From: Pseudofrankia inefficax
GTDB lineage: Bacteria > Actinomycetota > Actinomycetes > Frankiales > Frankiaceae
Assembly (NCBI RefSeq): GCF_000166135.1
Contig: NC_014666.1
Location: 8,184,001-8,248,000 of the forward strand
Reading direction: 5' to 3'
DNA: 64,000 nt
Under the pieces are notes generated by a model that searched no databases, had not been told where the DNA came from, and saw only the letters and a list, made by a program, of their open reading frames with translations. Of this stretch, positions 573-33,118 are shown in pieces. A program made the position numbers and the translations under genes. Within the stretch, counting starts at the first letter, position 1. Each line of letters starts with the position of its first letter.

Positions 573-733
573 GCCTGCTCCCTCGCGCCCGCGCACAGCC
601 ACCGACCATGAGGCCGCTTGTGGTCATGAGCCGGCTCCGCAGGGCCGGCGCACGCCTCACGCCCGCCTTGCTGGTCAGTACCGTCCTATCTGCTGGCACG
701 CTACCGACCTGCTGTTTCTCACGGATTAGGCGG

Positions 734-1183
734 CTATCGCCGTTCCTTGCGCCACACGAGCTTGAGGGCGGACCAGTCCACGTCGAGGGCGGCGACCTTG
801 GTGTCGACCAGACCGAGGGGGAGCGCCTCGTCACGGATGAGGTTCTCGGTGACATCGCTTCGATGGCCGGCCGCCTTGCGTGGCCAGGCGATCCACAGCG
901 CACCCGCCGGAAAGATCACCTGGCCGAAGCCCGCGATCGCAGCCTCCAGCTCTTCCGGCGTCCGGCAGAAGGCAACGACGACGTTCGCCGCGCCGGACGG
1001 AGGGCCGGCGGGCTCGGCGGCAGGCGGCGTGGAGATCCGCTGGCTCGTCACGTCGGCCGGAAGGTCAGGGATGGCCCAGCCCGCCGGCGCGCCGCACAGC
1101 ACAACCTCATGTCCGGCCTTGACCCCGAGCTTCCGCACCATCGCGGTGCCTGAGTAGCCTGCCTGCCCGTTTGTCACGGTCAC
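734..1183 (-). CDS. DUF3052 family protein
   Basis: This 149-residue protein has the layout I recognise for DUF3052: an N-terminal AGYSGT..VRKLG segment, a GAPAGW motif near residue 35, and a C-terminal half with IAWPRK and LVDTKVAALDVDWS followed by a basic end. The family is common in bacteria and functionally uncharacterised; it looks like a small cytoplasmic protein. The upstream GTG at 1183 is used because it keeps the conserved GYSGT segment; an internal ATG at 1141 is possible. It lies 160 bp from the amidohydrolase on the same strand and is divergent from the histidine kinase. Confidence 0.8.
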   Translation of the reverse strand: MTVTNGQAGYSGTAMVRKLGVKAGHEVVLCGAPAGWAIPDLPADVTSQRISTPPAAEPAGPPSGAANVVVAFCRTPEELEAAIAGFGQVIFPAGALWIAWPRKAAGHRSDVTENLIRDEALPLGLVDTKVAALDVDWSALKLVWRKERR

Positions 1184-18011: not shown

Positions 18012-18257
18012 GGTGCTTCCGATCGTGCCTGACAATTCGGCCGGCCGCCCAGTGCCACTCACAACCGGGCCTCTCGCTACCAGCACAACTACGTCCAACC
18101 AACCAACACGCTGTTACCAAATCGTTCCAGCGTGGTGACCTACGGCGACCATATTTCGCCAGATGGCGCGTCGGATGTCCGTCTTGGGATGGTCATATCG
18201 GGCGCATCGGCCGTATGGTAAGCGGATCACATCGCCAAAGGCGGCTTGGGGCGTGGA

Positions 18258-19040
18258 ATGCTCAGGGTGCTGATCTATTGCGTTCTCTTCGCGCTCGTTC
18301 CGGTGGTCGCCTGGCTCACCGCCCGGCGGGTGTCGACGTTCGAGCGGCGACTGGTCGCTGCCGTAATGGTGGTCGTCCCGACGGGGCTCATCGTGTTCGT
18401 GATGGTGATGACCAGCCACGGTAAGGGAGCGACCGCGGCGCTCAGCGCCGAGGACGCGCCGAACTCCACGGCGAGCTGGAGCATTGGTCCACTGTTGGAG
18501 CTCGACACCGCTCCCGCAGCGGTAACGCCCACCGCCGATGCGGGCGTCGCCCCGCCGCCAGCCACAGCCGGCGCTCGTCCGCCGGCCTTGGGCGGTCGCC
18601 CGGACGCGAAGTCGGAGAAGCAGCCCGGCTCGACGAGTCCCCTGGCTCCCGGCTTCGCGCCGGTCGTGCCGGTGGAACCGGTTGGCGTGATCCTCCCGCC
18701 GGTCACGATCCCGTCGAGCGCTGGTCCCAGGACGCTTCCGCCGGTGACCGTGCCAGTGATCACCACGCCGCCGCGCCCGTCACCGCCGGCCGGGCCGACG
18801 ACGACACCGCCGGTCATCGAGCCGACGACGCCCGTCATCACGCCGCCGCGCACCACACCGCCGGTCACGACAAGCGCGGCACCGGCTCCGACGACACAGC
18901 CGCCGGTCACCACCGAACCGCCGGTCACCGAACCGACGAGCGCCGCGCCGACGATCGTGACCGATCCGGTGACCACCGGGCTGTCCGACCTGCTGAGCGC
19001 CTCCGCGTTCCTCTCCGCGACGGCCTCTCAGTCGGCGTAG
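18258..19040 (+). CDS. Membrane protein with Pro/Thr-rich extracytoplasmic tail
   Basis: A 260-residue protein of unknown function. Two N-terminal hydrophobic helices (about residues 3-20 and 30-50) are followed by a long tail dominated by Pro, Thr, Val and Ala with recurrent TPPV and TEPPVTEP motifs. Such tails often span the cell wall or are glycosylated. There is no catalytic domain. The ATG at 18258 follows a G-rich sequence 3-8 nt upstream. Divergent from the helicase. Confidence 0.7.
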   Translation: MLRVLIYCVLFALVPVVAWLTARRVSTFERRLVAAVMVVVPTGLIVFVMVMTSHGKGATAALSAEDAPNSTASWSIGPLLELDTAPAAVTPTADAGVAPPPATAGARPPALGGRPDAKSEKQPGSTSPLAPGFAPVVPVEPVGVILPPVTIPSSAGPRTLPPVTVPVITTPPRPSPPAGPTTTPPVIEPTTPVITPPRTTPPVTTSAAPAPTTQPPVTTEPPVTEPTSAAPTIVTDPVTTGLSDLLSASAFLSATASQSA

Positions 19041-19072
19041 CGCCGCGCCTCAGTCGGCGTAGCGCCGCGCCC
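19029..19072. repeat. 22-bp direct repeat at a gene end
   Basis: Tcagtcggcgtagcgccgcgcc occurs twice in tandem. The first copy supplies the last codons and TAG stop of the Pro/Thr-rich protein; the second lies in the intergenic region, suggesting a recent duplication of the 3' end. Confidence 0.8.
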
Positions 19073-19102
19073 GACAAGGGGCCGCCCGCTCCGCGCCTTG
19101 AT

Positions 19103-19179
19103 CATGATCGTCGGCTTGGCCCTCGAGTGGTTGCGGCCAGGCCCGATTCACGACCGCCCGAGGGCGAAAACGGCGATCA
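19103..19179. repeat. Interspersed palindromic repeat, copy A
   Basis: Left arm gatcgtcggcttggccctcg and right arm cgagggcgaaaacggcgatc are about 20-nt imperfect inverted repeats enclosing about 35 variable bases. The same arms recur at 21026-21102 and 56152-56228, always intergenic, so this is a REP/BIME-like family or a repeated terminator. Confidence 0.75.
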
Positions 19180-19441
19180 CCGCGCCGGGCCGACCGTCGC
19201 GGGCGCTGCGCTAGCCGCTGCGGGGCTGCCGGACCGGCCGGGATTCTCCCGCTGCGCGCGCCGGTTGAGGCGAACAGATCGCCGACGCCGGTGGACGCGG
19301 ATTCAGCTTCATAACGGACAGTCAAGATCTCAACCAGAAGTCCACTACCAGGACACGGACACGACACAAAGCAGTCGCTTGACTTCGCTGCGCTCTCACC
19401 TGCCGCTACTGTTGCCACCTCATGTGACTCGGGGGGGCGCA

Positions 19442-20119
19442 ATGCGAAACATGCGGGCGATCGACGGACGAACGGACATCAGGCTCGCTGAGGCGTCGGC
19501 GTTAGGACGACCGCGCCGGCACGTGGTGGCCGGCGCGTGGTTGGCCGCTCCTTTGGCGGTCCTGGTGCTGGGCCTGGCCGGATGCTCGTCTCACACCGGT
19601 GACGACGCGTCGGGCTCGGCTCAGGTCGAGGCCAGCGCCGTTGGCCTGGTGGCCCCGGAGACGTCGGATCCGGCGACATCCGAGCCCTCCCTCGGCGATA
19701 CGCCTTTGGGACTCGACGTCGCCGCCGACCCACCGCCCGTCGCGCCCACGTCCGCTATTCCGCCGACGACGAAGGCGGCCCAGGCGGCGCCAGCGCAAAC
19801 GGCGCCAACTCGGGCGGCCGCCGCCGCGGTGGCGGCTCCGCACACGTCGCAGGCCCCGCCGCCACCGCCAGCCCAGGCTGCCCCGCCGCCGCAGAACCAG
19901 GCGCCCGCACCAGCACCGCCGGCGACAACGGCTCCGCCGCCGGCGAACTGTGACCCCGCCTACCCGGACAACTGCCTGCACGACGGCATTGGCGACTACG
20001 ACTGCGCGGGCGGCTCCGGTAACGGTCCCAACTACGTAAGTGGCCCGATCCGCGTGTTGCCCCCGGACCCCTTCGGTCTCGACGGCGACGGCGACGGGAT
20101 CGGCTGTCAGTCCTCCTGA
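19442..20119 (+). CDS. Lipoprotein with Pro-rich linker and Excalibur-like C-terminus
   Basis: A 225-residue exported protein. The hydrophobic segment ends in the lipobox LAGC near residue 42, so it should be lipidated at that Cys. A long Ala/Pro/Thr linker follows, with runs such as APAPPATTAPPP. The C-terminal roughly 55 residues (NCDPAYPDNCLHDG, YDC, VLPPDPFGLDGDGDGIGC) end in DxDxDGxxC, the signature of the calcium-binding Excalibur domain. The ATG at 19442 sits after a G-rich run. It is likely a surface lipoprotein; its partner is unknown. Confidence 0.8.
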   Translation: MRNMRAIDGRTDIRLAEASALGRPRRHVVAGAWLAAPLAVLVLGLAGCSSHTGDDASGSAQVEASAVGLVAPETSDPATSEPSLGDTPLGLDVAADPPPVAPTSAIPPTTKAAQAAPAQTAPTRAAAAAVAAPHTSQAPPPPPAQAAPPPQNQAPAPAPPATTAPPPANCDPAYPDNCLHDGIGDYDCAGGSGNGPNYVSGPIRVLPPDPFGLDGDGDGIGCQSS

Positions 20120-20327
20120 CCGAGCGGCGAGCCGGCCGCACCAGCTCTCGCACGGGGGTGGTGGGGCCGGCCAGGCCGTCGCGGCCGTGCCGCACGGCGT
20201 TCCACGGATGCGCAGCGCTGTTCCACGGGCGTGCCGCGCGGCGGTTCCTCGGGCGTAGCGCGAAGCGCGGACACTTTGGCGCTGGCCTGGAGCAGGCCGG
20301 CGCCGGTCCGACCCGGATGATGAGGAC

Positions 20328-20987
20328 ATGCCGGTGGCCTGGTGGGTGGCGTTCGCCGCGGTCGGGATGGTGGTCCTGGCAGCGTGTGCCGTCGAGCTCA
20401 CGCACTGGACCGCGTCCCGCCGGCATTTCCCCGACCCACCAGCGAAGACCGGCGCCGACGACCAGACCGAGGTCATCGTGGTCTTAGGCTGCCCGACTCG
20501 CCACAACGGCAACGTAAGCGCCAACCAGCAGTGGCGGACCAAGATCGCAGTTCGCTCCCGGCGGCGCCGCACGGACAGCCTGCTGGTCTTCACCGGGGCA
20601 GCGACGCTGGGCGCCGCAGTTGCCGAAGCGGACACGATGGCTGGTTATGCGCGTTCCGCCCTCGGGGTCGCCGAGGAGCTGATCGTGTCCGAAGCCAGCT
20701 CGCGCTCCACCCGAGAGAACCTCGCCTTCTCCACCCCACAGCTGGAGCAGGCGACCGTCATCAGGATCGCGTCGAACCCGCTGCACGCCGCCCGGGCCCG
20801 CCGCTACCTACGCCAGAGCCGCCCCGACCTGTTCGCCCGCCTCGCGCGAACCCGCGACTACCGCCCGTTCGAACACCCCTGGCTCAAGCTCAACTCGGCC
20901 TTCTACGAACTAGGCCGCCCCATCCTGCGCCGCCAGTTCCCCAAACTCCGCGACCGCTTCCAAGGCCGCACCCGCCCGAAGCCCTAG
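20328..20987 (+). CDS. DUF218 (YdcF/SanA-like) membrane-anchored protein
   Basis: A 219-residue protein with one N-terminal membrane helix (AWWVAFAAVGMVVLAACAV) and a DUF218 domain. VIVVLGCP is the first strand, ADTMAGYA and the RSTRENLAF segment are the conserved middle part, and VIRIASNPLHAARARRYL is the typical late motif. The family includes SanA, YdcF and ElyC, linked to envelope integrity, but no reaction is established. A GTG at 20334 is an alternative start with better spacing to GAGG. Confidence 0.75.
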   Translation: MPVAWWVAFAAVGMVVLAACAVELTHWTASRRHFPDPPAKTGADDQTEVIVVLGCPTRHNGNVSANQQWRTKIAVRSRRRRTDSLLVFTGAATLGAAVAEADTMAGYARSALGVAEELIVSEASSRSTRENLAFSTPQLEQATVIRIASNPLHAARARRYLRQSRPDLFARLARTRDYRPFEHPWLKLNSAFYELGRPILRRQFPKLRDRFQGRTRPKP

Positions 20988-21025
20988 CTCCGCCTCCGCT
21001 TAGGTGCGCTCGTTCCGACGTCCCC

Positions 21026-21102
21026 ATGATCACCGTTTCGGCCCTCTGAGGGTCGTTGCCGGGTCTGTTTCGTAGCCAGGAGAGGGCGAAAACGCCGATC
21101 AA
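21026..21102. repeat. Interspersed palindromic repeat, copy B
   Basis: Arms gatcaccgtttcggccctct and agagggcgaaaacgccgatc are imperfect inverted repeats, homologous to copies A (19103) and C (56152). It lies between the DUF218 gene and the thymidylate-kinase-like gene, both on the + strand. Confidence 0.75.
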
Positions 21103-21320
21103 CGGGACGGGCGGACCTCGGCGGCGACAGCGCCAAGGTCCGCCCGCCCGGCCAGCGCCCCGCCGCCGTCAGATTGGCATCCGCCCACCGCGACGACACC
21201 GCGAAAGACCGCCTGGGCCATCGTCCGCTCGCCGCGTCACCGGGGCCCGGCCACCCGATCATGATCCGTAGCCGGCACCACCGGGGCGAACGGGCTCAAC
21301 GAAGCGGTTTACGGTCGGGT

Positions 21321-22031
21321 ATGCGCGCTCGACCGAGAATGATCGTGCTTGTCGGCGTCGACGGGGCCGGCAAGTCGACCGCGGCACGACGACTCGCCAA
21401 CGAACTGACGGCCTCGGGCACCCCCGCGCGCTACTTCGAGAACGCTGGCGGCCGGCCGATCATCGACGCCCTCGCACACCGCCTCGGCCGCCGCGACGGC
21501 CGCCATCTCCTGGGAAACCGCGGCTACCTCGGCGTCGAGGTCACCATCCGCTGGCTCGCGATCACCCGCGCCGTGACCCTCTCGACGCTCACCCGCCGAG
21601 TAGCCGTCATGGACCGCTACACCTACTGCCAATACGCCATCATGCGAGCCCGAGGCGACAGCCGCCCGACTCGCAGACCGACCGACGACCAGGACCTCTG
21701 GGAGGCTATCGATACGAGTGGCGGTCACGGGCGAGGCTTCAACCGCAGTGACCCACAGACCGGTGGACACGCCGAACGGCTGGTCCGCCTCTTGTACGCC
21801 CCATTTCCCAAGCCGGACGCCACCTTCTACCTGGCGGTTCCGCCCGAGAAGGCAGCCCGCCGCGTCCAGGCTCGCGGCCGCGACGTCGAGGACCCCATCT
21901 ACCTAGCCGCCTTCGCCGCGGCCTACCACACTCTTCCCGAGTTCCCGGGGTTCACAGTGATCGACGCATCCGGCAACGCCGAAGAGCTCCTCGCCACCAT
22001 CCAATCCCACCGATGCCCGTTGAACGACTGA
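21321..22031 (+). CDS. Thymidylate-kinase-like P-loop protein
   Basis: A 236-residue P-loop kinase. Walker A is VGVDGAGKST at about residues 11-20, MDRYTYCQY (about 96) matches the DRY/DRF motif of dTMP kinases, and the lid region contains RRVQARGRDVED. It is longer and more divergent than housekeeping Tmk, so a paralogue with another (deoxy)nucleotide or unknown substrate is likely. The ATG at 21321 has no strong ribosome-binding site. It lies at the left edge of the defence island, 90 bp before the DGQHR gene and on the same strand. Confidence 0.7.
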   Translation: MRARPRMIVLVGVDGAGKSTAARRLANELTASGTPARYFENAGGRPIIDALAHRLGRRDGRHLLGNRGYLGVEVTIRWLAITRAVTLSTLTRRVAVMDRYTYCQYAIMRARGDSRPTRRPTDDQDLWEAIDTSGGHGRGFNRSDPQTGGHAERLVRLLYAPFPKPDATFYLAVPPEKAARRVQARGRDVEDPIYLAAFAAAYHTLPEFPGFTVIDASGNAEELLATIQSHRCPLND

Positions 22032-22121
22032 TTCCACTTAAAGGGTGTCGTAGGTGGATGAGACGATTAGAGGCAAGCGTGCGACGTTCCAACGGGACGC
22101 GTGTGGTCGGAGGGGGCAGAC

Positions 22122-23354
22122 ATGATCCAGATCGAGGGCGACAGGGTGAGTGGGCGTCGGAGGGAAACGACGTTCCTAGCTCAGCGGTCCTACCAGGGTG
22201 GTCGTATCGTATATACGATACGCGTTCCACTGACCACGCTCGATCTAATCCTGCCGTTGCCGGATCCCGACCAGCCGATCGCCGACAATCGCAGGGTCGA
22301 TCCCCGACACGCTAAGGCGTTCGGCGACTACATCAAGGCGAAGCAGAGTTGGGTGGCACCGACCTTGCTCACCCGCGACAACGGCGGCTGCCGGTTCGTG
22401 GAGGTCCCCGACACCGACGGGCAGATCGGCTACCTGACGATCCCGTGGGCGACCGGAGCGATCTCGCCGCTGACTAACGTCGACGGTCAGCATCGCATCC
22501 TCGGCATCCATTTGATCATAAGGGCGCTGGGCGAGGAGGTCCAGAAGATCGACCGCGAGATCGGTCGGACCACTCGCGCTGATCGGATCGCCAACTTCGA
22601 GGTGGCGCGGGACAAGCTCACCGCCGACCTCAAGCGCCTCGAGAACGAGTCCGTAGGGGTCGACATTTACCTCGAACCGAGCAACGTCCTGGCCAGACAG
22701 ATGTTCGTGGACGTGGCGGACAACGCAAAGGGCATCTCCAGCGCGCTGAGGGCCCGCTTCGACAGCAGCAAGGTCGCGAACCGGATCCTCGACCCGGTGA
22801 TCGGCCACGCCCTACTCAAGGACAAGATCGACCTCGAGCAGGACAGGATGACGGGCAGGAACCCGAACCTCATGGGCGCCAAGCACGTCGCGGACCTCAT
22901 CCGCGGGGTCGCCGTCGGCGTCGGGGGACGGATGGGCAGGCAGCAGGAGCAGGATCTGGCCGACGAGGTACTGGTCGAACGTGTCCACGGATTCCTGAAC
23001 TGCCTCGCAGACGGGTTCGCGGATCTGTCGGCTATCGCAGAGGGCGCCCTCAAGCCGGTTGACCTGCGGGCGCAGTCGCTGCTCGGCTCGGTCGGCATGC
23101 TGCGAGTTCTGGCCGGCGTCTACCACGAGCTGCTCGAGACCGAGGAAGCGTCGGACGAGGAGATCATCGCCTTCTTCAGCAACCTGGATCCCCACATGAA
23201 CGCGCCCGCTTCCGGCAGCGGCATCTGGCTTAGCACCGTCGCCCGGGCGGACTTCGAACCCAACGGCGCTTCGCTGATCATGCGTACCCAGAACCTTGTG
23301 CACCTGGCCAAGGTCGTTACCGGTTGGTACCGCACTCCGCCAAACATCCTCTGA
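22122..23354 (+). CDS. DGQHR-domain protein (DndB-like)
   Basis: A 410-residue protein with the diagnostic DGQHR motif at residues 121-125 within TNVDGQHRILGIH. DNRRVDPRHAKAFGDYI (about 55-71) fits the N-terminal part of the DndB/DGQHR family. DndB regulates DNA phosphorothioation genes; other DGQHR proteins sit in mobile or defence loci. No dndACDE genes are present, so a sulfur-modification role is not supported. The ATG at 22122 follows GGAGGGGG. The gene converges on the Z1/MORC operon, separated only by a terminator. The coding region includes a perfect 20-bp palindrome (codons 28-34). Confidence 0.85.
   Translation: MIQIEGDRVSGRRRETTFLAQRSYQGGRIVYTIRVPLTTLDLILPLPDPDQPIADNRRVDPRHAKAFGDYIKAKQSWVAPTLLTRDNGGCRFVEVPDTDGQIGYLTIPWATGAISPLTNVDGQHRILGIHLIIRALGEEVQKIDREIGRTTRADRIANFEVARDKLTADLKRLENESVGVDIYLEPSNVLARQMFVDVADNAKGISSALRARFDSSKVANRILDPVIGHALLKDKIDLEQDRMTGRNPNLMGAKHVADLIRGVAVGVGGRMGRQQEQDLADEVLVERVHGFLNCLADGFADLSAIAEGALKPVDLRAQSLLGSVGMLRVLAGVYHELLETEEASDEEIIAFFSNLDPHMNAPASGSGIWLSTVARADFEPNGASLIMRTQNLVHLAKVVTGWYRTPPNIL
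22203..22222. promoter_or_regulatory. Perfect 20-bp palindrome, operator candidate
   Basis: The sequence cgtatcgtatatacgatacg reads identically on both strands, is conspicuously AT-rich for this genome, and lies 80 bp inside the DGQHR gene. It looks like a dimeric regulator site or a protein-binding mark. Confidence 0.45.
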
Positions 23355-23364
23355 TTCTGAGTAC

Positions 23365-23406
23365 CCGACGGCTGTCCCCCGCAACCGCGCGGGGGACAGC
23401 CGTCGG
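23365..23406. terminator. Bidirectional 18-bp-stem terminator
   Basis: Ccgacggctgtcccccgc pairs perfectly with gcgggggacagccgtcgg around a 6-nt loop. It lies 11 bp after the DGQHR stop and 52 bp past the end of the convergent Z1 gene, so it can serve both transcripts. Confidence 0.85.
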
Positions 23407-23457
23407 AAGCCGCCTATACCGCGTTCGACCGACAGCTCTCAGCAGGCAATGATGCTG

Positions 23458-26400
23458 CTATCGCTGGGCGTCGCGTTGGATAATGGCGCCAGCGTCGCTC
23501 TTCTTGACCTTGAAACCGATCTTGGACTTGGCAAGGAACGGTAGGGCGTAGGAGATGAGGGTCGCCACGTCACCGGCGGGTACGGGATCCGGGAGGTCGC
23601 TGGCGTTCTTGGGGCCGGCGGGTCCGGTGTCGAGCGCGAGGTTGAGCAGGACCGCCCCACGGGTAGGAGCGTGAAGCCCGACGGCGTAGGGGCCGCCCCT
23701 CGTGTCCAGTTCCTTGGTTCCCGACGGGCCGTCGACCAGCACACCGGCGATCGTCCGCATCGCGTCACGTTGCCTCGGTGAGCTGCCGTTGAAGCCTGGA
23801 CGGTCTTTACGCCGGGACGTGTTGATGACCGGCAGTGGCATCGGATGGTCTCCAGGGCGCCGGTGTGCAGCGCCCTGGAGCAGGGGCACGAAGACGACGA
23901 AGTCCCGCAGGATGCCGTCTTCGATCAACTCGTGGACGGCTCGCAGGCTGGGGCGTGGGTCCCAGCCTGGCAGCCAGATGAGCCCTGACATCACCTCGTA
24001 CACCACCTGCGCAGGCACGACGCCGAACCGCACCTGGTACGGAGACACCTCGTGCCCAGGCCGCCCATGCTCGTTGAAGTGCTGGAACTCCGCGCGCGAC
24101 GTGAGCGCAGAAATCAGCGGCAGTACCGCGGCGAGGTTTCGGGCGTTACGAGACCCGTCGCCCCGGTCCGGAAGCAGAGTGAAGTCCTCGACCTTGCCGC
24201 CAGCGCCCTGCCGGACAAGTTCGGCGTTGTACATCTTGCTGGTGGACGTCGGTTTGAGCCAGGGGAGCTGTTGGAAGACCATCGGCGGGACGTCTTCGGG
24301 TCGGACGCCTGGCAGGCCGTCGGGCGTCGGCTCGGAGTAGCGACGCAGCTCCGCGCGGAAGTCCTCCTCGTCCTCGACGATAGCTTGGAACGCCTCGTAG
24401 AGGTCGTAGGTCTTGGTGCCGACGCGAACGTTGCGGCCGATGTGGAGGCGGACGAGGTCGTGGTATCCGCGGCGGAAGCCGAACCAACGACCCATCTGCA
24501 TGAGGGAGTCGGCCTGCCCTGTCCTCCTGGTGTAATAGGAGATCGTAAGCCCCTCGACGGTGAAGCCCCGACTCAGCTTGGCGCCACCCACTAGGATCTT
24601 CCAGACGTCGCCGGTCTGGAAGTTCAATTCGTCCTGCTCGTAGTCCTTCTCCTTACTCCCGTTTACGACTATGACCGGGGAGCGGCCTTTCTCGATCCGG
24701 CCGAGGACGAGCCCAATCTTGTCGACGAGTTCGTCGAAAGTTGCGGGCAGGGGCATAGCGTCCGGCGCGGCCTTCCCCTCCGACGCGGCACGACCCCGCG
24801 CCCTGACTAGCAGTGCGGCGGCGACGGGGGAATAGTCCTCGTCGAACAGCTTGCGCAACCGGGCCGTCCCAGCCTGCGTGTCATAGCCGGAACGCCGCCA
24901 GATCTCGCGAATCCTGTTCGCGAGGTCGGCGTGGTCCGCCACGTTGACTGACTCGTGGACCAGCATGGTGTGATGTTGGAACCTCAGGTTCGGTCTGACA
25001 CTCTGGCGATAAAGCTTGATCGCACCCGACAACACGAAAGCGTCGAGGGCTCCCTGCATCTCCTCGCGCCAGCAGTCCTCGTCGTCGACCGACGCGGTCA
25101 GGTCTCGGACGTAGGCCTTCTCGTTGGAGTTGTGAATCGTCTTGGCCTGGTCGCCGTAGTCGACGCCCAGGTCGTGGAAGTCCGCCGCGCCCATGTAACC
25201 GTCGGGCCGTTCGAGGGCAAGTATGAAATCCTTCGGGAAGATGTCCTCGGAGTCGTCGGGATCGACGAAGACGTTCGCGAACGGGGTGGCCGTATAGCCA
25301 ATGTACTGCGCTCTACTCAGGACTCTCAGCAGTTCGGAGATCTGCCGATTGACAGCGGTCCGCTCCTGTTTCTCCTTCGGCGTCAATCTGGGCTTGCGGG
25401 TGTTGACGGAGGCTTGGTCGGCCTCGTCGTCGATGATCAGGGTCGGGATCTCGCCCAGATTCGCGCGGATCCCGCGTAGGTCAGCGACGAGCTTCTTCAG
25501 GACGGTGCTGTTCTTCTTGACGACCGCGATCCGGACATCGCTGGACAGGAGGTTCTCGGGACGGTAGAGGGGCACCAGCTTGTTCTTGAGTTGATTTCCC
25601 GCCCGGAAATCGAGCACCGCGAGACCTTGCTGGAGCCTCTTGTAGTCGCCATTGTAGGTGCTGAGCCGGTGGACGGCGGGAACCTCGTCCAGATTGCCGA
25701 TCTCGACGCCGTGACGCAGGAAGCGGCCGTCGTGCCAGTCGGTGTCCCCATGATAGTCAGTCTCCGCGAACTGTACAGGGTCGTTTTCGTCGCGGCCGAC
25801 GAGGATGTTCTCGACGCCAATCAGCTCCATGTCCAGACGTCGCTGCGTCTGCTGTCGCAGAATCTCGACAGTGCCAGTCAAGACGATGACGAGCCGAAAT
25901 CCGGCGTCGATCGCCTTCGCCACGACGCCGGTAAAGTTCGCTGTCTTGCCGCTCTGTACGTAGCCGACGACGAGGCCGCGCGATTGGAACCGTTCCTCCC
26001 AGGTCGGATCGGCCAATCGTTCGACGACTGCGGTCGTCGCTGTATCGAGTCGTCCGAGCGCCGGAGCCGCCCATCCCTCTCTCGCCAGAAGGTCCGAGTA
26101 CGCCTTCCAGTAGAAGTCGTGACCGGCCCGCCGTTGGGCGGTGTACCAGTGGTGCCAGTCCTTGTCCCTGGCCTCGATGACGACGCCGGCCGGGTCCGGA
26201 GGGTAGACCGCCTCTATCGTCGGCCAGGACGGCTCCGTGAACGCCAGCGCGCGGTAGATCACGGCTCGGCGCTCGGCCGTGTGGTGCCGTGTGCCCTCAG
26301 CCCAGGATGCGTCGTCGCCGGTGACGGCGTCCCACCGGGCGACGAGGATCTGGAACTGGATCCGGATCTCGTCGTTGACGCCCTGCCGGTTGAGGGCCTC

Positions 26401-26535
26401 GACGAGTGCCTTCTCGTCGTAGGGCGGGGCGCCTTTGCGCGCGGCGAAGAAGTTCACGGTGTCAAGAAGCGCCGAGGGCGCCTCGTCCAGCATGCTGTTC
26501 AGCGCCGGCAACAGGCCGACGACACAACCGCTCAT
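23458..26535 (-). CDS. Z1-domain superfamily 2 helicase/ATPase
   Basis: A 1025-residue protein. Walker A is GYVQSGKT at 191-198, Walker B is LIIDDEADQ near 370, TATPFAN is motif III, and GRWFGFRRGYHDL near 690 is the motif VI region. The middle and C-terminal part matches the Z1 domain (FKVKGGAKLSRG-like sequence seen here as LVGGAKLSRGFTVEGL). Z1 proteins occur with DNA methyltransferases, MORC/MutL-like ATPases and PD-(D/E)XK proteins in predicted restriction systems, and probably translocate along invading DNA. The ATG at 26535 lies 2 bp after the nuclease stop, indicating one operon. Confidence 0.9.
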   Translation of the reverse strand: MSGCVVGLLPALNSMLDEAPSALLDTVNFFAARKGAPPYDEKALVEALNRQGVNDEIRIQFQILVARWDAVTGDDASWAEGTRHHTAERRAVIYRALAFTEPSWPTIEAVYPPDPAGVVIEARDKDWHHWYTAQRRAGHDFYWKAYSDLLAREGWAAPALGRLDTATTAVVERLADPTWEERFQSRGLVVGYVQSGKTANFTGVVAKAIDAGFRLVIVLTGTVEILRQQTQRRLDMELIGVENILVGRDENDPVQFAETDYHGDTDWHDGRFLRHGVEIGNLDEVPAVHRLSTYNGDYKRLQQGLAVLDFRAGNQLKNKLVPLYRPENLLSSDVRIAVVKKNSTVLKKLVADLRGIRANLGEIPTLIIDDEADQASVNTRKPRLTPKEKQERTAVNRQISELLRVLSRAQYIGYTATPFANVFVDPDDSEDIFPKDFILALERPDGYMGAADFHDLGVDYGDQAKTIHNSNEKAYVRDLTASVDDEDCWREEMQGALDAFVLSGAIKLYRQSVRPNLRFQHHTMLVHESVNVADHADLANRIREIWRRSGYDTQAGTARLRKLFDEDYSPVAAALLVRARGRAASEGKAAPDAMPLPATFDELVDKIGLVLGRIEKGRSPVIVVNGSKEKDYEQDELNFQTGDVWKILVGGAKLSRGFTVEGLTISYYTRRTGQADSLMQMGRWFGFRRGYHDLVRLHIGRNVRVGTKTYDLYEAFQAIVEDEEDFRAELRRYSEPTPDGLPGVRPEDVPPMVFQQLPWLKPTSTSKMYNAELVRQGAGGKVEDFTLLPDRGDGSRNARNLAAVLPLISALTSRAEFQHFNEHGRPGHEVSPYQVRFGVVPAQVVYEVMSGLIWLPGWDPRPSLRAVHELIEDGILRDFVVFVPLLQGAAHRRPGDHPMPLPVINTSRRKDRPGFNGSSPRQRDAMRTIAGVLVDGPSGTKELDTRGGPYAVGLHAPTRGAVLLNLALDTGPAGPKNASDLPDPVPAGDVATLISYALPFLAKSKIGFKVKKSDAGAIIQRDAQR

Positions 26536-26537
26536 GG

Positions 26538-27527
26538 TCAGGAAACCCCCGTGGGACCAGGTCCGGCGAATGCGGCAAGTGCCGTCGGCGGAGTGCCTGG
26601 CGGCCAGCTCGTCAGGTCGAGACGGTATGAGACGGCTGCGACAAGTTCGGGATGGTGGATCATGGTCTCTATGTGGTCTCGGGTGATAGCCGGGAAGTCG
26701 TCATCGACCAGGTAGGCTGCAGGCGTGGTCCGCAAGAGGTAGCGCTCGCGGTAAAGGTCGGCGTCGCCTGCGCGCCATCCGGCTGCACGCAGGAGGCCGT
26801 CGAAGGCGGTGGTCTCGTCAACCAGCCGTCCGCGCACCCTGCCGACGAGCTCGGGCAGGGTGACGCTGTCCCGGTTGGGTCCAGTCCGGGTGAGTTGGAT
26901 CGAAACCAGCCACAGCGGACGGTGGGGGTTAGCCGCGAGCTGGGTCTCGCTGGCGATCAGATGCGTCCGCTTCTCGGACAACGTCGCCTTCACCTCAAGG
27001 TCGACGTCAGTCAATCCGAAGTCGTGCTCGCCGCGATCCGGGCCGAGCCAGGCCCCGACCGCCGTCTTCTCGCCGAGGCCGGTCAGCAGATGGTTGAGCA
27101 CCAGCAGCTCGCCTAGGAGGCCGACTGCCCTGTCCTCGCTAAGACGGGCGCGGGTGGCGAGCAGGTCGTGGAACGAGTCGATCGACAGAGCAGTGGCCTG
27201 CCGTAACGGCCTGCCCGTGACGAGATCGTCGACGACAGCCTCGACCAGCGCGTACGCCTCGACGTGGGCCAGGTGAGCGTCGATGTCAAGCACGAACCAA
27301 GGCCCCTCGCCATCGCGGTACACGGACGCGACAGAGACTCGGCTGAGCGCGGCGACATCCGGCTCCGGTCCGTCAACCGGCGTCCACAGCTCGATTCGCT
27401 CGACCTTCGGATCGATCTTCAAGAGGCACGTCGGCCGGTCGGCCAACAACAGCGTGATTGGGGAGCCAGCGACGAAATACTTCTCCAGCGTCTCCGGGCT
27501 CAGATGTTCGCGTGGGTTCAGGGTCAT
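26538..27527 (-). CDS. PD-(D/E)XK motif protein (DUF4420-like nuclease)
   Basis: A 329-residue protein. The nuclease core is readable: E140 in LLGELLVLNHL, W160, D169 in GEHDF, and E178-x-K180 in DLEVKA, the PD-(D/E)XK order of DUF4420 proteins. It is the probable DNA-cutting subunit of the system. The ATG at 27527 follows GGAAG and overlaps the ATPase stop (ATGA), giving tight translational coupling; the upstream extension to 27803 overlaps that gene and is not real. The next gene starts 2 bp after its stop. Confidence 0.88.
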   Translation of the reverse strand: MTLNPREHLSPETLEKYFVAGSPITLLLADRPTCLLKIDPKVERIELWTPVDGPEPDVAALSRVSVASVYRDGEGPWFVLDIDAHLAHVEAYALVEAVVDDLVTGRPLRQATALSIDSFHDLLATRARLSEDRAVGLLGELLVLNHLLTGLGEKTAVGAWLGPDRGEHDFGLTDVDLEVKATLSEKRTHLIASETQLAANPHRPLWLVSIQLTRTGPNRDSVTLPELVGRVRGRLVDETTAFDGLLRAAGWRAGDADLYRERYLLRTTPAAYLVDDDFPAITRDHIETMIHHPELVAAVSYRLDLTSWPPGTPPTALAAFAGPGPTGVS

Positions 27528-29071
27528 CGATCTTCCTTCGGCGGACCGAGGCCCGCGTCGATTTGCGCATGAACTGCGCGGTAGAGGATCTCCTGCCACG
27601 CCGCAAGCTCGGCCTTGCCCCTCGGGCCAAGGTAGGTGCCTTGAAAAAACTGGTTCGTGAGCAGGTGTAGCAGCGTCTTCAATACGGGCGCGTCGTCCGG
27701 GTCCTCGCTTTCCCAGCCGACCAGCGCTTCCCGGTAGCGGCGGTTGAGAACCAGCTCTGCCTTTTCTCGGTCGACGTCGAACACTCGGCGTCTTTGGAGC
27801 CATCTCCAGCGGATCGCGATCGGCGGGACGCCACGATCGAACTCGACGGCCTCGCCGTAGCCCCTTAGGACCGCGTCGGGCAGTCCACCATCCGGTTCGA
27901 CCACGGTGATTGGCTGGCGTTGACGGGCACGTCCACGTTTCTCTACCCCGGCGGCCACGTCGAGGTAATCAAGGAGGTTCTCGCCTGTGGTCACGCATGT
28001 CGCGGTCTCCAAGGCGCGGCGCAGGTCCGCCGAGAGCGTCAGACCAGACTTCTCGGGATTGATCGTCGCGTGGCCCCCACCGGTTCCAACGATGTCCAGT
28101 GCAATGCGGGCCAGTTCCCATCCCGGCCGGTCAGCCCACAGTCCGCACCAGCCACCGATCTGGAGGAGCCGGTCGCGGCGGTAGGCGAAGATGCCCTGGA
28201 ACTTAACTCCCGGATCTCCGCCGAGCTTGAACTCCGGGGCCTGCGACCGCGCCGGCCAGACATGCACGACCGCTCTAACAGGCTCAGAACCGTCGGGCAG
28301 GTCGATCCGTAGTCGCTGCGGGAAATCCGGGTCTCCCGAGACGGGGTACGCGAAAGGGTTGGTGATCTCTACGCGTCGAGGGATTCCGCCAGCGCCAGCA
28401 ACCACGTCCCAGGTTTCCAGGGTGATCCGCGGTCCGGACGGCCGGGCGAGCAGCCGATGGAACACCACCCCCAGGTGGTTCCGGATCTTGAGCATCGCAT
28501 CCTGGAGCCAGCGTCGCTGCTCGTCCGGATCACGGGTGCTCGGGAAGGTGCGGACGTCGCGCCACTCGATCAGGGTCCCGGTCACGAACCGCATCGCAGT
28601 CGCGACACCGTCGATCCGGGCCTCCACGTCCGCCGGGTTCAGCTCGCCGACCAGCGGGGACGACGTGTCACCCGACCTGATTAGCTTTCGTCCGACAGGG
28701 GTCGCGCCGCGGGCACGCGAGCAGATCAGCACGGTGTCCGCTTGGCTGAGCGAAGCCGCCTTGAGGCCGACACCGAAATGGCCAAGGTCCGTGTCACCGT
28801 ATTGACGCGTGCCGGCGTACATCATCGCCGCGTCAACCGCGGCCAGATCCATTCCCCGCCCGTCATCGATCACCTGCAGACCGACAGGCGCGTCGCTGGC
28901 GAGGAGGATCCGGATGCAGATCGCCCGGGCGCGAGCGTCGATGGAGTTGTCGACGAGGTCCGCCACGGCCGAGGCGAGCGTGTGGTGCAGGCCGATCCTG
29001 TTCGCGAGCGCAGGGTCCATCCGCACGGCCTGCATTGCCCCGACAGCCGCCGGCACCTCGAACGACGTCAT
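27524..29071 (-). CDS. MORC/MutL-like GHKL ATPase
   Basis: A 515-residue protein with a complete GHKL ATP-binding site: VADLVDNSIDA (N box, about 36-46), VIDDGRGM (G1, about 67-73) and GHFGVGLKAA (G2, about 96-105). The fold and the SIDA signature place it with MutL/MORC/Hsp90 ATPases rather than kinases, and no HisKA is present. ATP-driven clamp-like dimerisation on DNA is the expected role. The ATG at 29071 follows GGAGGGGG. Its stop overlaps the nuclease start, and it lies 15 bp after the methyltransferase end. Confidence 0.9.
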   Translation of the reverse strand: MTSFEVPAAVGAMQAVRMDPALANRIGLHHTLASAVADLVDNSIDARARAICIRILLASDAPVGLQVIDDGRGMDLAAVDAAMMYAGTRQYGDTDLGHFGVGLKAASLSQADTVLICSRARGATPVGRKLIRSGDTSSPLVGELNPADVEARIDGVATAMRFVTGTLIEWRDVRTFPSTRDPDEQRRWLQDAMLKIRNHLGVVFHRLLARPSGPRITLETWDVVAGAGGIPRRVEITNPFAYPVSGDPDFPQRLRIDLPDGSEPVRAVVHVWPARSQAPEFKLGGDPGVKFQGIFAYRRDRLLQIGGWCGLWADRPGWELARIALDIVGTGGGHATINPEKSGLTLSADLRRALETATCVTTGENLLDYLDVAAGVEKRGRARQRQPITVVEPDGGLPDAVLRGYGEAVEFDRGVPPIAIRWRWLQRRRVFDVDREKAELVLNRRYREALVGWESEDPDDAPVLKTLLHLLTNQFFQGTYLGPRGKAELAAWQEILYRAVHAQIDAGLGPPKEDR

Positions 29072-29086
29072 GAACCCCCTCCACGA

Positions 29087-30427
29087 TCACCCTGCCACCC
29101 GGGCGCGCCACAAACGCGAGCTGATCGCGACACAATACGACGCGACACGCTCGACGCCCACAGAGCCCACAGAGTGGCACCGGAAAGGCGAACAGAGCGA
29201 ATGTAGTGCTACAAGGAAGGCGTAGGCTGAAGATTCGATCTTGGCGTCGGCGACCGCCAAGCCGACGGGCGCGCCCCCGGACCGGCTCACTTCCTCCATC
29301 GCTGCGATCTGTTCGCCGATGCGTTGCGCGAGCAAGCCTGGCGCCGCGTTGCCGACCTGGAGGGCCATGGCCTCGACACCGCCGCGGAGTTCCGCGGTCG
29401 GTGGAAAAGTCTGGAGCAGCATCGCCTCACGAAGCGTGATCGCACGATCCTGGACGGGATGAGCGAAACGTCCGCGGGTGACGTTGGTGCACCATGAGGT
29501 CTGGGTCGGTGCGACCTGGTCCCACCACATCCGGCCGTAGATGTCGTAGTGTCCCTTGTGATCACGATGGCAGTCGAATACCGGGTTGTCGGGAAGGTCT
29601 GCGCGACCTCCACCCTCCGGGATCGTGCGCAGCCGTCGAATCGCGATCTCGCTGTGTCGCCGGGCCGCGTGAAACCGATCGTTCGGGTCCACCTGACCGG
29701 ACATCAGCGGACGTAGACGACCAATCGTCTCGCTGACGGTCGCGTACGGGCGCCGAGCTAGTATGGGCGGCGTTTCCGGGGCGCGGTGAGTCTCCGGCGG
29801 CAATCGAGGCTGGAGACTCGGCTGGCAATCACGAGGACTCGTTTGCGGCGTTGAGGCACTCCGTAGTCAGCAGTGTCGACGACGTGCGAGACGACCCGGT
29901 CGCCGAGCTCGTCGAGTTCGTCACAGAAGATCCGGAAATAGTGCTCCCAGCGACCCGACCAGGCCGGGGACGTTCTCGAAAGCGATGTGTCGAGGGCGTA
30001 GTTCCCTGACCATGCGTAGGTACTCGTAGATGAGTTCGTTGCGACGCAAGTCCTCGGCGTCCGCGTCTTGCCCGCGGCGAAGGACCGTGAAGCTCTGGCA
30101 GGGTGGGCAACCGAACAGTAGCGTCAGCTCGCCGGGGACCACCCCGGCCGCGCGCAGGTCGTCCAGCGAGACGTCCCGGATGTCGCGCACGATCGGCCAC
30201 AGGCCCAAGTTGGCCTCATAGGCAGCGGCCGCCATGCTGCCGATCTCCACCGCCGCTACGGGCTTGAAGCCCGCGACCCAGAAGCCCATGGAACCACCGC
30301 CGCAGCCGGCAAAAAGGTCGACGACCGTGTACACGAACCCGTCACCCTCCCGCAACGCCCGCGGCCCAACACGCAAGGCCTTCGACAAGGCCAGAGGAAA
30401 CCTCCGCCAAACCGGCGCAAGTTCCAT
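29087..30427 (-). pseudogene. DNA cytosine-C5 methyltransferase with two compensating frameshifts
   Basis: The N-terminal part carries DLFAGCGG (motif I), FGCPPCQSF (motif IV, catalytic Cys) and FENVPG (motif VI). The frame then shifts at about 29949-29955: the next segment, WEHYFRIFCDELDEL to DYGVPQRRKRVLVIASR (motif VIII), is read in another frame. It shifts back at about 29823-29830 to the original frame (SLQPRLPPETH to LREAMLLQTFP and ALQVGNAAP, motifs IX-X). The first and third segments share one frame, so the indels compensate. Either the gene is inactive, or there are sequencing errors or recoding. The start is uncertain (30427 ATG; GTG at 30334 or 30547 possible). All other conserved motifs are intact. 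Confidence 0.85.
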
Positions 30428-30478
30428 CTCCCACAACCGACGACGCCAACCGCCCCGCCTACTTAGGAAGACAAACTT

Positions 30479-30507
30479 ACCATACCTCTCAACGGATCCC
30501 CATTCAA
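30479..30507 (-). promoter_or_regulatory. Promoter candidate for the methyltransferase-to-Z1 operon
   Basis: On the minus strand, TTGAAT (30507-30502) and TATGGT (30484-30479) are separated by exactly 17 bp, in a locally AT-rich patch. Transcription would start near 30472, upstream of the ATG at 30427. Confidence 0.55.
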
Positions 30508-30622
30508 CTATTGTCCATATTTCGCGGCTACTGTCGCTACGCGCCACAACTTGCCCGCGCGGAGGCCTGGTGGCGGGATCGATGAACGCGTAGGACAGGG
30601 CCGGCGCAATCGCTCCTACAGT

Positions 30623-31060
30623 TCAGCTGACGGTAAGCCTTCGCGTCCGGACGACCTCCGCAACCCTTTCCGCAGCGACACCCGGGTCCTCGTGCTCCCA
30701 CACCCGGACGACTTGCCATCCAGCAGCCTCAAGGACGTGATCGGTGTTGAGGTCCCGTTCCCGGTTGATGCGGACCTTCTCGGCCCAGAAATCGGCATTT
30801 GTCTTGGCCACAGTGTGGTGTCGCGGACAGCCGTGCCAGAAGCACCCGTCGAGGAATACGACTACCCTCACCCGCGGGAACACCAGGTCGCCCGTCCGCC
30901 GAACCGCCGGCAGCGGTCGTGCACCGACGCGGTACCGCAGGCCGAGGCCGTGCACTGCGGAGCGCAGCGCCAGCTCGGGTTTGGTGTCGCGAGACTTGTT
31001 GGAGCGCATCGAGGCCCGGACGCCCGCGGAGGACGCCCACGACTCCCGAGTCCTCGCCAC
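30623..31060 (-). CDS. vsr: Very short patch repair endonuclease
   Basis: A 145-residue Vsr. The sequence MRSNKSRDTKPELALR, RTGDLVFP (catalytic Asp, about 58), VFLDGCFWHGCP (about 68-79) and TNADFWAEKV are the family hallmarks. Vsr nicks next to T:G mismatches created when 5-methylcytosine deaminates, so it normally accompanies a cytosine-C5 methyltransferase, here the next gene on the strand (about 195 bp on). The start at 31060 is a GTG; ATG at 31009 is an alternative. The gene is intact although the methyltransferase is not. Confidence 0.92.
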   Translation of the reverse strand: MARTRESWASSAGVRASMRSNKSRDTKPELALRSAVHGLGLRYRVGARPLPAVRRTGDLVFPRVRVVVFLDGCFWHGCPRHHTVAKTNADFWAEKVRINRERDLNTDHVLEAAGWQVVRVWEHEDPGVAAERVAEVVRTRRLTVS

Positions 31061-31149
31061 GAAGCCCAGCCTAACGGCAGCCGACCGGGCCGTTCCGTCA
31101 CACCCTCACGAAGCCAAACAGAGCGACAAGCGGTCGCCAAGCGGAACCG

Positions 31150-31413
31150 CTACGGCCTCCTATCTCCTCCTCGTTTACGTCGATTGGTCGGCTCTACGAC
31201 AATCGCTCCTCGCACCGTTGGACGGATAATACGTTGTCCGCCCGCAAGTCCCGCACAGACGAGGTGGGATTCAGAAGTGGGCAAATAGGTCACGGACTTC
31301 GTGATATGGTCACGTGCCATCCAGTCGAACTGGTATAGCCCCCCCTCATCGTCGTGGTGCCTGTCGAGGTCGTCGTGCAGGCGACGCAGAGCCGCAACGC
31401 GAACCGCCCTCAA
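31150..31413 (-). CDS. Possible small hypothetical protein
   Basis: An 87-codon frame with a TTG start and no clear ribosome-binding site. The product (DDEGGLYQFDWMARDHITKS, LPTSESHLVCAGLAGG) looks more protein-like than the usual shadow frames but has no recognised family. It may be a remnant. It lies in the 770-bp gap between vsr and the cyclophilin gene, in which I see nothing else. Confidence 0.25.
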   Translation of the reverse strand: MRAVRVAALRRLHDDLDRHHDDEGGLYQFDWMARDHITKSVTYLPTSESHLVCAGLAGGQRIIRPTVRGAIVVEPTNRRKRGGDRRP

Positions 31414-31831
31414 TGTGGCCGAATAGGTTCATCACGATGGCTCCCTGAACGGCACACCGATGTCGATGGGTGGCCGCGCAGGCAGCAAGGCGAGACCGAG
31501 CTATCTGACAGGGATCATGCATCGGGTCGGGCCGGGTCGGGCGGACAACTTGCCGTCCGACGCCCGACCTCGGCGGCGACTTTGCTGGGCGACACCAGGA
31601 GGGCGGAGATCTCGGCAACCGAGCGGCCGCCGCTCAGTTCCGGATCGAGCACGGCGCTTTGCGGGCCGCCGTATCACCCAGCGCGAAGGGTCTCCTGCCC
31701 TCATTTGCGTCCAGCCCGCGACCGCCATCCAGGCGTCGCCAGCTCGTAACCAAATGTGTTCGCTCCGGCGGAGGGAGGCGGCCGTCGTACAGGTTGGGTT
31801 GCTAGGCTGCGACGCCGGGAGGTAGCAACTG

Positions 31832-33118
31832 ATGCCGGACGAGAAGGACCCCGCCGGGCCGGATGAACGGCCCGCCGAGTCGAGTGCGCCGGCAGAGCCG
31901 GCGGCCAAGACCAGCACCGCGCCGCCGATCATCGTTTCGGCCGCCGGAATCCCGATGATCCCGGGCGTCGGCACGGCCGACGCGCTGCCGGGTGGGTGGG
32001 CTGGCCTGCTGCCGCCACCACGGGATCCAGCCGCCGGGCCGTGGTCGGCCACCGGTCCGACGCTGCGTGACGGCGCGGCCGACGACGAGGACGACGACGC
32101 GCGGGACGAGGACGACGACCTCGACGAGGCCGACGCCAAGGACCTCGACGCCAAGGACCTCAGCGCCGACGACCTCGATGCCGAGGACGACGCCCCGGGC
32201 GCCAGGCACCTCGCCCCCGAGAACCCGGACGCCGAGGACTTCGACGAGCCTGACCCCGCCGACTTCGATGACGACGAGGACGACGAGGACGACGAGGACG
32301 ACGACGAAGACGACGAGGCGAAGCCGAGCTGGCAGAAGGACATCTCGGCCGGGGCGCCACGCCGCCGTCAGCTGTCGCCCGAGGTGAAGGTCGCCGCCTT
32401 CGGCCTGTTGGCCGCGGCGCTGCTCATCACCGGCGCGGTCCTGATCTCGAAGGCGGTCGGTGGCTCGTCGAGCTCCGCCGACACGCTGGCCACGCTGCCG
32501 ACCCCGACCACCAAGCCGCTCGCGTCGACCAAGGTTGGCGACTGCGTCTACACCGAGGATGGCCAGCAGCCAGCCCGGGACGTCACGCTCCCGCCGGCCG
32601 GGCCGAGCGTCGACACGAAGACCGCGACGATGACGATCAACACCAACTACGGCACGATGGTCGCCACGCTGGACGCGGCGAAGGCTCCGTGCACGGTGCA
32701 CGCACTGGAGTACCTCGCTCAGCACAAGTTCTACGACCAGACGACCTGCCATCGCGAGACGGCCGGGTCGACCTCCGAGATCTTCGTCCTGCAGTGCGGT
32801 GACCCGACCGCCCAGGGCTCCGGCACCCCTGGGTTCGCCTACAAGAACGAGAACACGAGCGGCGTCAACTACAACCGCGGTGTCCTCGCGATGGCGAACG
32901 GTGGCCCGGACACCAACGGCAGCCAGTTCTTCATCAGCTACGCCGATCCGACCGAGGCCGGCGCCCAGGCGCTGGCCGGCGGCTACACGGTCTTCGGCCA
33001 GATCACCCAGGGCCTGGACGTGCTCGACAAGATCACCGCTCCGGGTGTGCAGGGTGAAGCCGGCGACGGCCCGCCGGCCAGCAAGCCCGAGATCGCCTCG
33101 GTCACCATCACCCAGTAA
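31832..33118 (+). CDS. Membrane-anchored cyclophilin-type peptidyl-prolyl isomerase
   Basis: A 428-residue protein. After a Pro/Ala-rich start, a strongly acidic segment (about residues 80-165, runs of Asp and Glu) precedes one membrane helix (about 188-210) and a C-terminal cyclophilin domain (about 260-428). The domain contains FYDQTTCHR, YNRGVLAMANGGPDTNGSQFFI and YTVFGQITQGLDVLDKI, the conserved core. It should catalyse proline isomerisation outside the membrane. The acidic part would lie on the cytoplasmic side. The ATG at 31832 follows GGGAGG. Confidence 0.88.
   Translation: MPDEKDPAGPDERPAESSAPAEPAAKTSTAPPIIVSAAGIPMIPGVGTADALPGGWAGLLPPPRDPAAGPWSATGPTLRDGAADDEDDDARDEDDDLDEADAKDLDAKDLSADDLDAEDDAPGARHLAPENPDAEDFDEPDPADFDDDEDDEDDEDDDEDDEAKPSWQKDISAGAPRRRQLSPEVKVAAFGLLAAALLITGAVLISKAVGGSSSSADTLATLPTPTTKPLASTKVGDCVYTEDGQQPARDVTLPPAGPSVDTKTATMTINTNYGTMVATLDAAKAPCTVHALEYLAQHKFYDQTTCHRETAGSTSEIFVLQCGDPTAQGSGTPGFAYKNENTSGVNYNRGVLAMANGGPDTNGSQFFISYADPTEAGAQALAGGYTVFGQITQGLDVLDKITAPGVQGEAGDGPPASKPEIASVTITQ

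Follow-up and report, generated by a model that had tools for sequence, protein, structure and literature searches.

A cytosine methyltransferase gene with two frame changes, probably a pseudogene, in a horizontally acquired paraMORC-DUF4420-Z1 locus of Pseudofrankia inefficax

Introduction

The third type of MORC/paraMORC restriction-modification operon combines a GHKL ATPase with a Z1-type helicase, a protein of predicted restriction-endonuclease fold, a cytosine methylase and Vsr (Iyer, Abhiman and Aravind, 2008; PMC2292703). A putative defence system that comprises Z1, DUF4420 (printed as DUF4220) and a cytosine methyltransferase has also been described (PMC9523054).

The present analysis concerns 64,000 nucleotides of Pseudofrankia inefficax DNA (contig NC_014666.1, positions 8,184,001 to 8,248,000 of the forward strand), hereafter the window. 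An earlier note on this DNA had reported a methyltransferase frame broken twice beside intact effector genes. The locus, with its paraMORC ATPase, DUF4420 nuclease and Z1 helicase, is an already known system of predicted restriction type. Its ATPase, DUF4420 and Z1 genes are adjacent and intact, and the linked C5-cytosine DNA methyltransferase (MTase) gene is present in the window and broken. On the sequence evidence below, this MTase is probably a real pseudogene within a horizontally acquired paraMORC-DUF4420-Z1 restriction-type locus.

Gene content and origin of the locus

The features of the locus are collected in Table 1.

Table 1. Features of the inserted segment and of the interrupted MTase gene (window coordinates).
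Feature	Position	Strand	Evidence and remarks
Inserted segment, 9.7 kb	22003..31712	.	Missing at the same site in two close relatives; collinear DNA and GC3
DndB-like protein, convergent with Z1	22101..23354	+	PF14072; within the inserted segment
Z1 superfamily II helicase-like protein, intact	23458..26535	-	PF10593; MzaC-like (PADLOC MzaC); conserved-site test normal
DUF4420 PD-(D/E)XK nuclease-like protein, intact	26538..27527	-	PF14390; MzaD-like (PADLOC MzaD); conserved-site test normal
GHKL (MutL/paraMORC-type) ATPase, intact	27524..29071	-	PF13589; MzaB-like (PADLOC MzaB); conserved-site test normal
Readthrough tail beyond MTase motif X	29087..29305	-	Stop-free to 29087, 16 bases ahead of the ATPase start
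C5 MTase, probable pseudogene, whole alignable extent	about 29300..30334	-	PF00145; frame-aware alignment 30328-29300 with two frame changes
MTase C piece, target-recognition region and motifs IX, X	29306..29803	-	Frame that of the N piece
Second MTase break interval	29771..29813	-	Frame-aware alignment; direction opposite to the first
Second TGA stop, N/C frame, between the breaks	29867..29869	-	
MTase M piece, motif VIII (DTADYGVPQRRKR; GVPQRRKR)	29812..29946	-	Frame differs from N/C; HMM and alignment
First MTase break interval	29921..29965	-	Holds in-frame TGA 29921-29923; frame-aware alignment and rescoring
MTase N piece, motifs I (DLFAGCGG), IV (PCQ), VI (ENVPG)	29951..30334	-	Frame shared with the C piece
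Vsr-type mismatch endonuclease, intact	30623..31060	-	PF03852; conserved-site test normal

The DNA on either side of the inserted segment is collinear with two close relatives, G033 (93-94%) and G031 (about 88%), both of which lack the segment itself. GC3 is 0.73 in the M and C pieces of the MTase, 0.78-0.85 in the inserted neighbour genes and 0.91 in the flanking genes. Collinearity and GC3 mark the segment as an insertion, and the MTase locus was probably acquired horizontally. An insertion hotspot lies between a helicase gene and a cyclophilin gene (window 18098-31832; L121, L122, L124, L125), and its contents vary among related genomes. An HNH endonuclease gene occupies it in G033, almost nothing is inserted in G031, and in G030 and G032 the neighbourhood of the same cyclophilin gene holds another kind of paraMORC system, which includes two MTases and Vsr.

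The gap between the Z1 gene and the DndB-like gene, which converge, contains an inverted repeat (23365-23406) of 18 perfectly matched bases around a 6-base loop, likely a two-way terminator. No other dnd genes were found by the DndB-like gene, whose inserted neighbours are the Z1, DUF4420, GHKL, MTase and Vsr genes. Homologues of the DndB-like protein lie away from Z1 in seven other matches and beside it in one locus (L204), and a functional link between the two genes is not supported by these neighbourhoods. The DndB-like gene as a marker of methylase-free versions was rejected on the same seven homologues and on the presence of a DUF1156 methylase in L204.

The MTase gene is interrupted by two frame changes

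The double break described in the earlier note is borne out by HMM matches and alignment, which place motifs I, IV, VI and IX-X in one frame and motif VIII in another. An HMM from an alignment of intact MTase homologues matches the N piece with 119 bits (E 3e-35), the M piece with motif VIII with 40 bits (E 4e-11) and the C piece with 161 bits (E 5e-48). The three pieces are collinear on the minus strand, with M off-frame relative to N and C, and matches of this strength and order show that the presence of motif VIII in the other frame is not due to chance. Motifs I, IV, VI, VIII, IX and X are all recognisable in the correct order. They occupy neither one readable frame nor two complementary subunits, being separated by two frame changes and two main-frame stops. 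The comparison with orthologues that the note had proposed agrees with this picture: all single-ORF homologues keep N, M and C together in one frame. The nearest intact homologues are only about 45% identical to the window's MTase, so there is no near-identical intact copy to date or confirm the breaks, and a DNA-level search found no copy elsewhere in the genus.

Frame-aware alignment placed the breaks at 29935-29965 and 29771-29813, with 24 homologues as reference and also with six homologues taken singly. At the first break the pre-TGA reading scores -1.1 against 0.4 (shuffled mean -8.4); because both readings match the family about equally there, this break is confined only to the wider interval of Table 1. 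Of the two positions proposed previously, 29950 falls inside that interval and 29826 is slightly off. The breaks are about 150 bases apart. The shifts compensate arithmetically, as had been claimed, and half of all pairs of frame-changing indels would bring the phase back by chance alone; no reading is restored, since two main-frame TGA stops lie between the breaks. The M frame is closed by TAG 29758-29760, and these three stops together leave no continuous MTase product. Translation would end at 29923, and the product would be a fragment bearing motifs I-VI without motif VIII, the target-recognition region or motifs IX-X. From such a truncated fragment, no methylation by this gene would be expected.

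At the 3´ side, no stop was found near the expected C-terminus, and the C piece runs open through the readthrough tail. Motif X reads GNAAPG where the usual form is GNAVPP, and the acidic residue of motif II is replaced by G. The catalytic motifs IV, VI and VIII are unaltered.

Conservation of the MTase and its neighbours

Departures from the consensus class were counted in a leave-one-out test at columns conserved in at least 90% (or at least 95%) of 58 homologues. The MTase departs at 10 of 79 columns at the 90% threshold, against a homologue mean of 3.5%; only two of the 58 homologues are higher, and both are divergent. At the 95% threshold it departs at 4 of 56 columns, where the maximum among the 58 homologues is 6.9%. 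A smaller set agrees: the MTase departs at 11 of 74 sites there, and 24 intact homologues at 1-6 of about 75 each. The surplus of changes at conserved sites in the MTase is moderate. The effector genes were correctly described as intact: all four neighbours have an open frame and normal conservation, with violations at 2/131 sites in the paraMORC ATPase, 2/65 in DUF4420, 5/296 in Z1 and 1/49 in Vsr (1.5-3.1%, close to the respective homologue means).

Across 41.6 kb of flanking coding DNA in the window, no clear frame disagreement with G033 or G031 was found. The sole multi-frame match (window 605-837) was rejected as a frameshift; it falls where a stop-to-stop ORF has its N-terminal end, next to an overlapping ORF. 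This two-relative comparison replaced a survey with a codon-usage HMM over 464 kb of genome sequence, in which frameshifts were not separable from ordinary gene junctions.

MTase genes in homologous loci

We collected 80 loci with related ATPases, 71 of which carry the ATPase-DUF4420-Z1 triad. A full-length C5 MTase is present in 50 of the 71, 15 of these also having a DUF1156 (HmaB-like) methylase, and a DUF1156 methylase alone in seven. Partial C5 matches occur in another seven, three of them at locus edges. The examined flanks of seven triad loci (five with full flanks) hold neither a C5 nor a DUF1156 MTase, the two families to which this count refers. At the window locus, an intact C5 MTase and DUF1156 are both missing.

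Clearly broken MTases were observed in three related loci (L197, L204 and L151), and L151 and L204 carry DUF1156 besides. In Svornostia abyssi (L197:8363-9506) the MTase is frameshifted relative to an intact relative, L199, that is 92-93% identical, and the Z1 ORF of L197 is also shorter. The Cellulomonas hominis locus (L204:8400-16705) combines a broken MTase with a DndB-like gene convergent with Z1, in the layout of the window. The C5 MTase of L075 (13333-14662) occupies two overlapping ORFs in different frames, with a break near the target-recognition region, and may be either a natural split or a frameshift. In L078 (4791-6089), a NaeI-type restriction endonuclease gene adjoins paired ATPase and Z1 genes, which are accompanied by Vsr and a C5 MTase; DUF4420 was not detected there.

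Explanations for the interrupted MTase

A plain pseudogene, which was missing from the three options of the earlier note, fits best. It accounts together for the shifts, the conserved-site substitutions and the absent C-terminal stop. The GC3 of the M and C pieces, lower than in the inserted neighbours, and the broken MTases of L197, L204 and L151 also speak for it. Against it count the unaltered catalytic motifs, the moderate size of the conserved-site excess and the distance of the nearest intact homologues; nor does the sequence offer a reason why restriction-type genes should stay intact next to an MTase without activity.

That the assembly contains two indel errors and the MTase is intact in the cell is considerably less probable. 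Two indels would suffice, and motifs IV, VI and VIII are intact; however, errors account for the shifts alone and leave the conserved-site substitutions and the missing C-terminal stop unexplained. With no clear frame error in the flanks, a pair of errors confined to about 150 bases would have to be a local accident. The surroundings of the breaks do not favour such an accident: no homopolymer longer than four bases occurs in 29740-29990, the longest by the breaks being CCCC, and the predicted strand folding is ordinary (z 0.96 and -0.81). The option of sequence errors raised in the earlier note is therefore possible and disfavoured.

A different proposal cuts across these explanations, namely that selection still maintains the effector triad, which now discriminates self from non-self independently of linked methylation. 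We consider this unlikely. The ATPase, DUF4420, Z1 and Vsr genes are normally conserved and the MTase is not, but the same pattern is expected from recent MTase loss. The seven triad loci without a C5 or DUF1156 MTase are in keeping with the proposal, but only these two families were looked for there, and two other C5-MTase-Vsr loci of the genome could protect in trans. For the corresponding option in the earlier note, a switch away from methylation-based self-recognition, nothing speaks directly, and we give it a similarly low probability. If the proposal were true, discrimination between self and invader would not depend on linked 5-methylcytosine, which may then hold too for the 5-7 homologous triads without a linked C5 or DUF1156 MTase.

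The reason given in the note, that an unprotected methylation-dependent nuclease would be toxic, is weak. A methylation-dependent nuclease is harmless without methylation; toxicity would be expected only of a methylation-sensitive one. The argument is further weakened by the effector triads elsewhere that lack a linked MTase of the two tested families and by the two intact C5-MTase-Vsr loci of this genome. The activity of the triad is itself putative, and reasoning from toxicity is conditional on a methylation-sensitive nuclease. That the cell tolerates the triad suggests that it is not autonomously toxic, being unexpressed, trigger-dependent or devoid of its activity; alternatively, another MTase in the genome may cover its sites. 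The same genome holds two further intact C5-MTase genes with Vsr (L144:5983-8630 and L145:5667-7774), in one case with an HNH endonuclease gene downstream, and these loci are candidates for protection in trans. The two other C5-MTase genes lie at C1:8736914 and C1:8496292 of the genome. Such protection and an inactive or self-sparing effector are not separable here.

Readings in which the broken gene still yields an active enzyme are the least probable. Programmed recoding, in which the ribosome changes frame twice to make a full-length MTase, is very improbable: the pieces are ordered and alignable and the first break could fall on a UGA, but two opposite shifts would be required in one gene, stops intervene, MTase conservation is relaxed, the single-ORF homologues have no shift there, and the slippery heptamer X XXY YYZ is absent from 29740-29990 (+1-type sites lay outside this systematic scan). 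A split enzyme assembled from separately translated polypeptides is just as hard to sustain: C5 MTases can be split, as in the two-subunit enzymes M.AquI and M.EcoHK31I, and the L075 MTase lies in two overlapping ORFs, but here motif VIII alone is in the other frame, its piece has no listed ORF that both reaches 60 aa and begins at a usual start codon, and the ORF of the C piece starts with TTG.

As a pseudogene, the MTase would be ordinary; its use is as a naturally occurring methylase-minus example of a system that has been predicted but not characterised. With a strain that has intact ATPase, nuclease-like and helicase genes and a broken methylase, one could test directly whether the system needs cytosine methylation to recognise self.

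Comparison with known systems

Relative to the putative defence system of PMC9523054, the window has two of the three core genes intact together with a DNA-repair-type endonuclease (Vsr), whereas the third core gene is the probable pseudogene and an AIPR gene is absent. Compared with MzaABCDE, the MzaB-, MzaC- and MzaD-like proteins of the window match PADLOC models, and a DndB-like gene is located at the Z1 end. The MzaA sigma factor and the MzaE AIPR protein were not among the Pfam matches of the proteins scanned at 22104-31060. The window is without genes like those of the Hma system (HmaB methylase, HmaC ATPase), whereas the nearest homologous operon (L148, Blastococcus) unites HmaB- and HmaC-like genes with the same triad. 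In L148 (3776-15552) and similar loci (L150, L164), these genes (DUF1156 methylase, DUF499 ATPase) share an operon with the MzaB/D/C-like triad, and the combination may be an Hma-Mza hybrid. The third type of paraMORC operon (PMC2292703) has the same gene set as the window, from which the window differs in its broken cytosine methylase.
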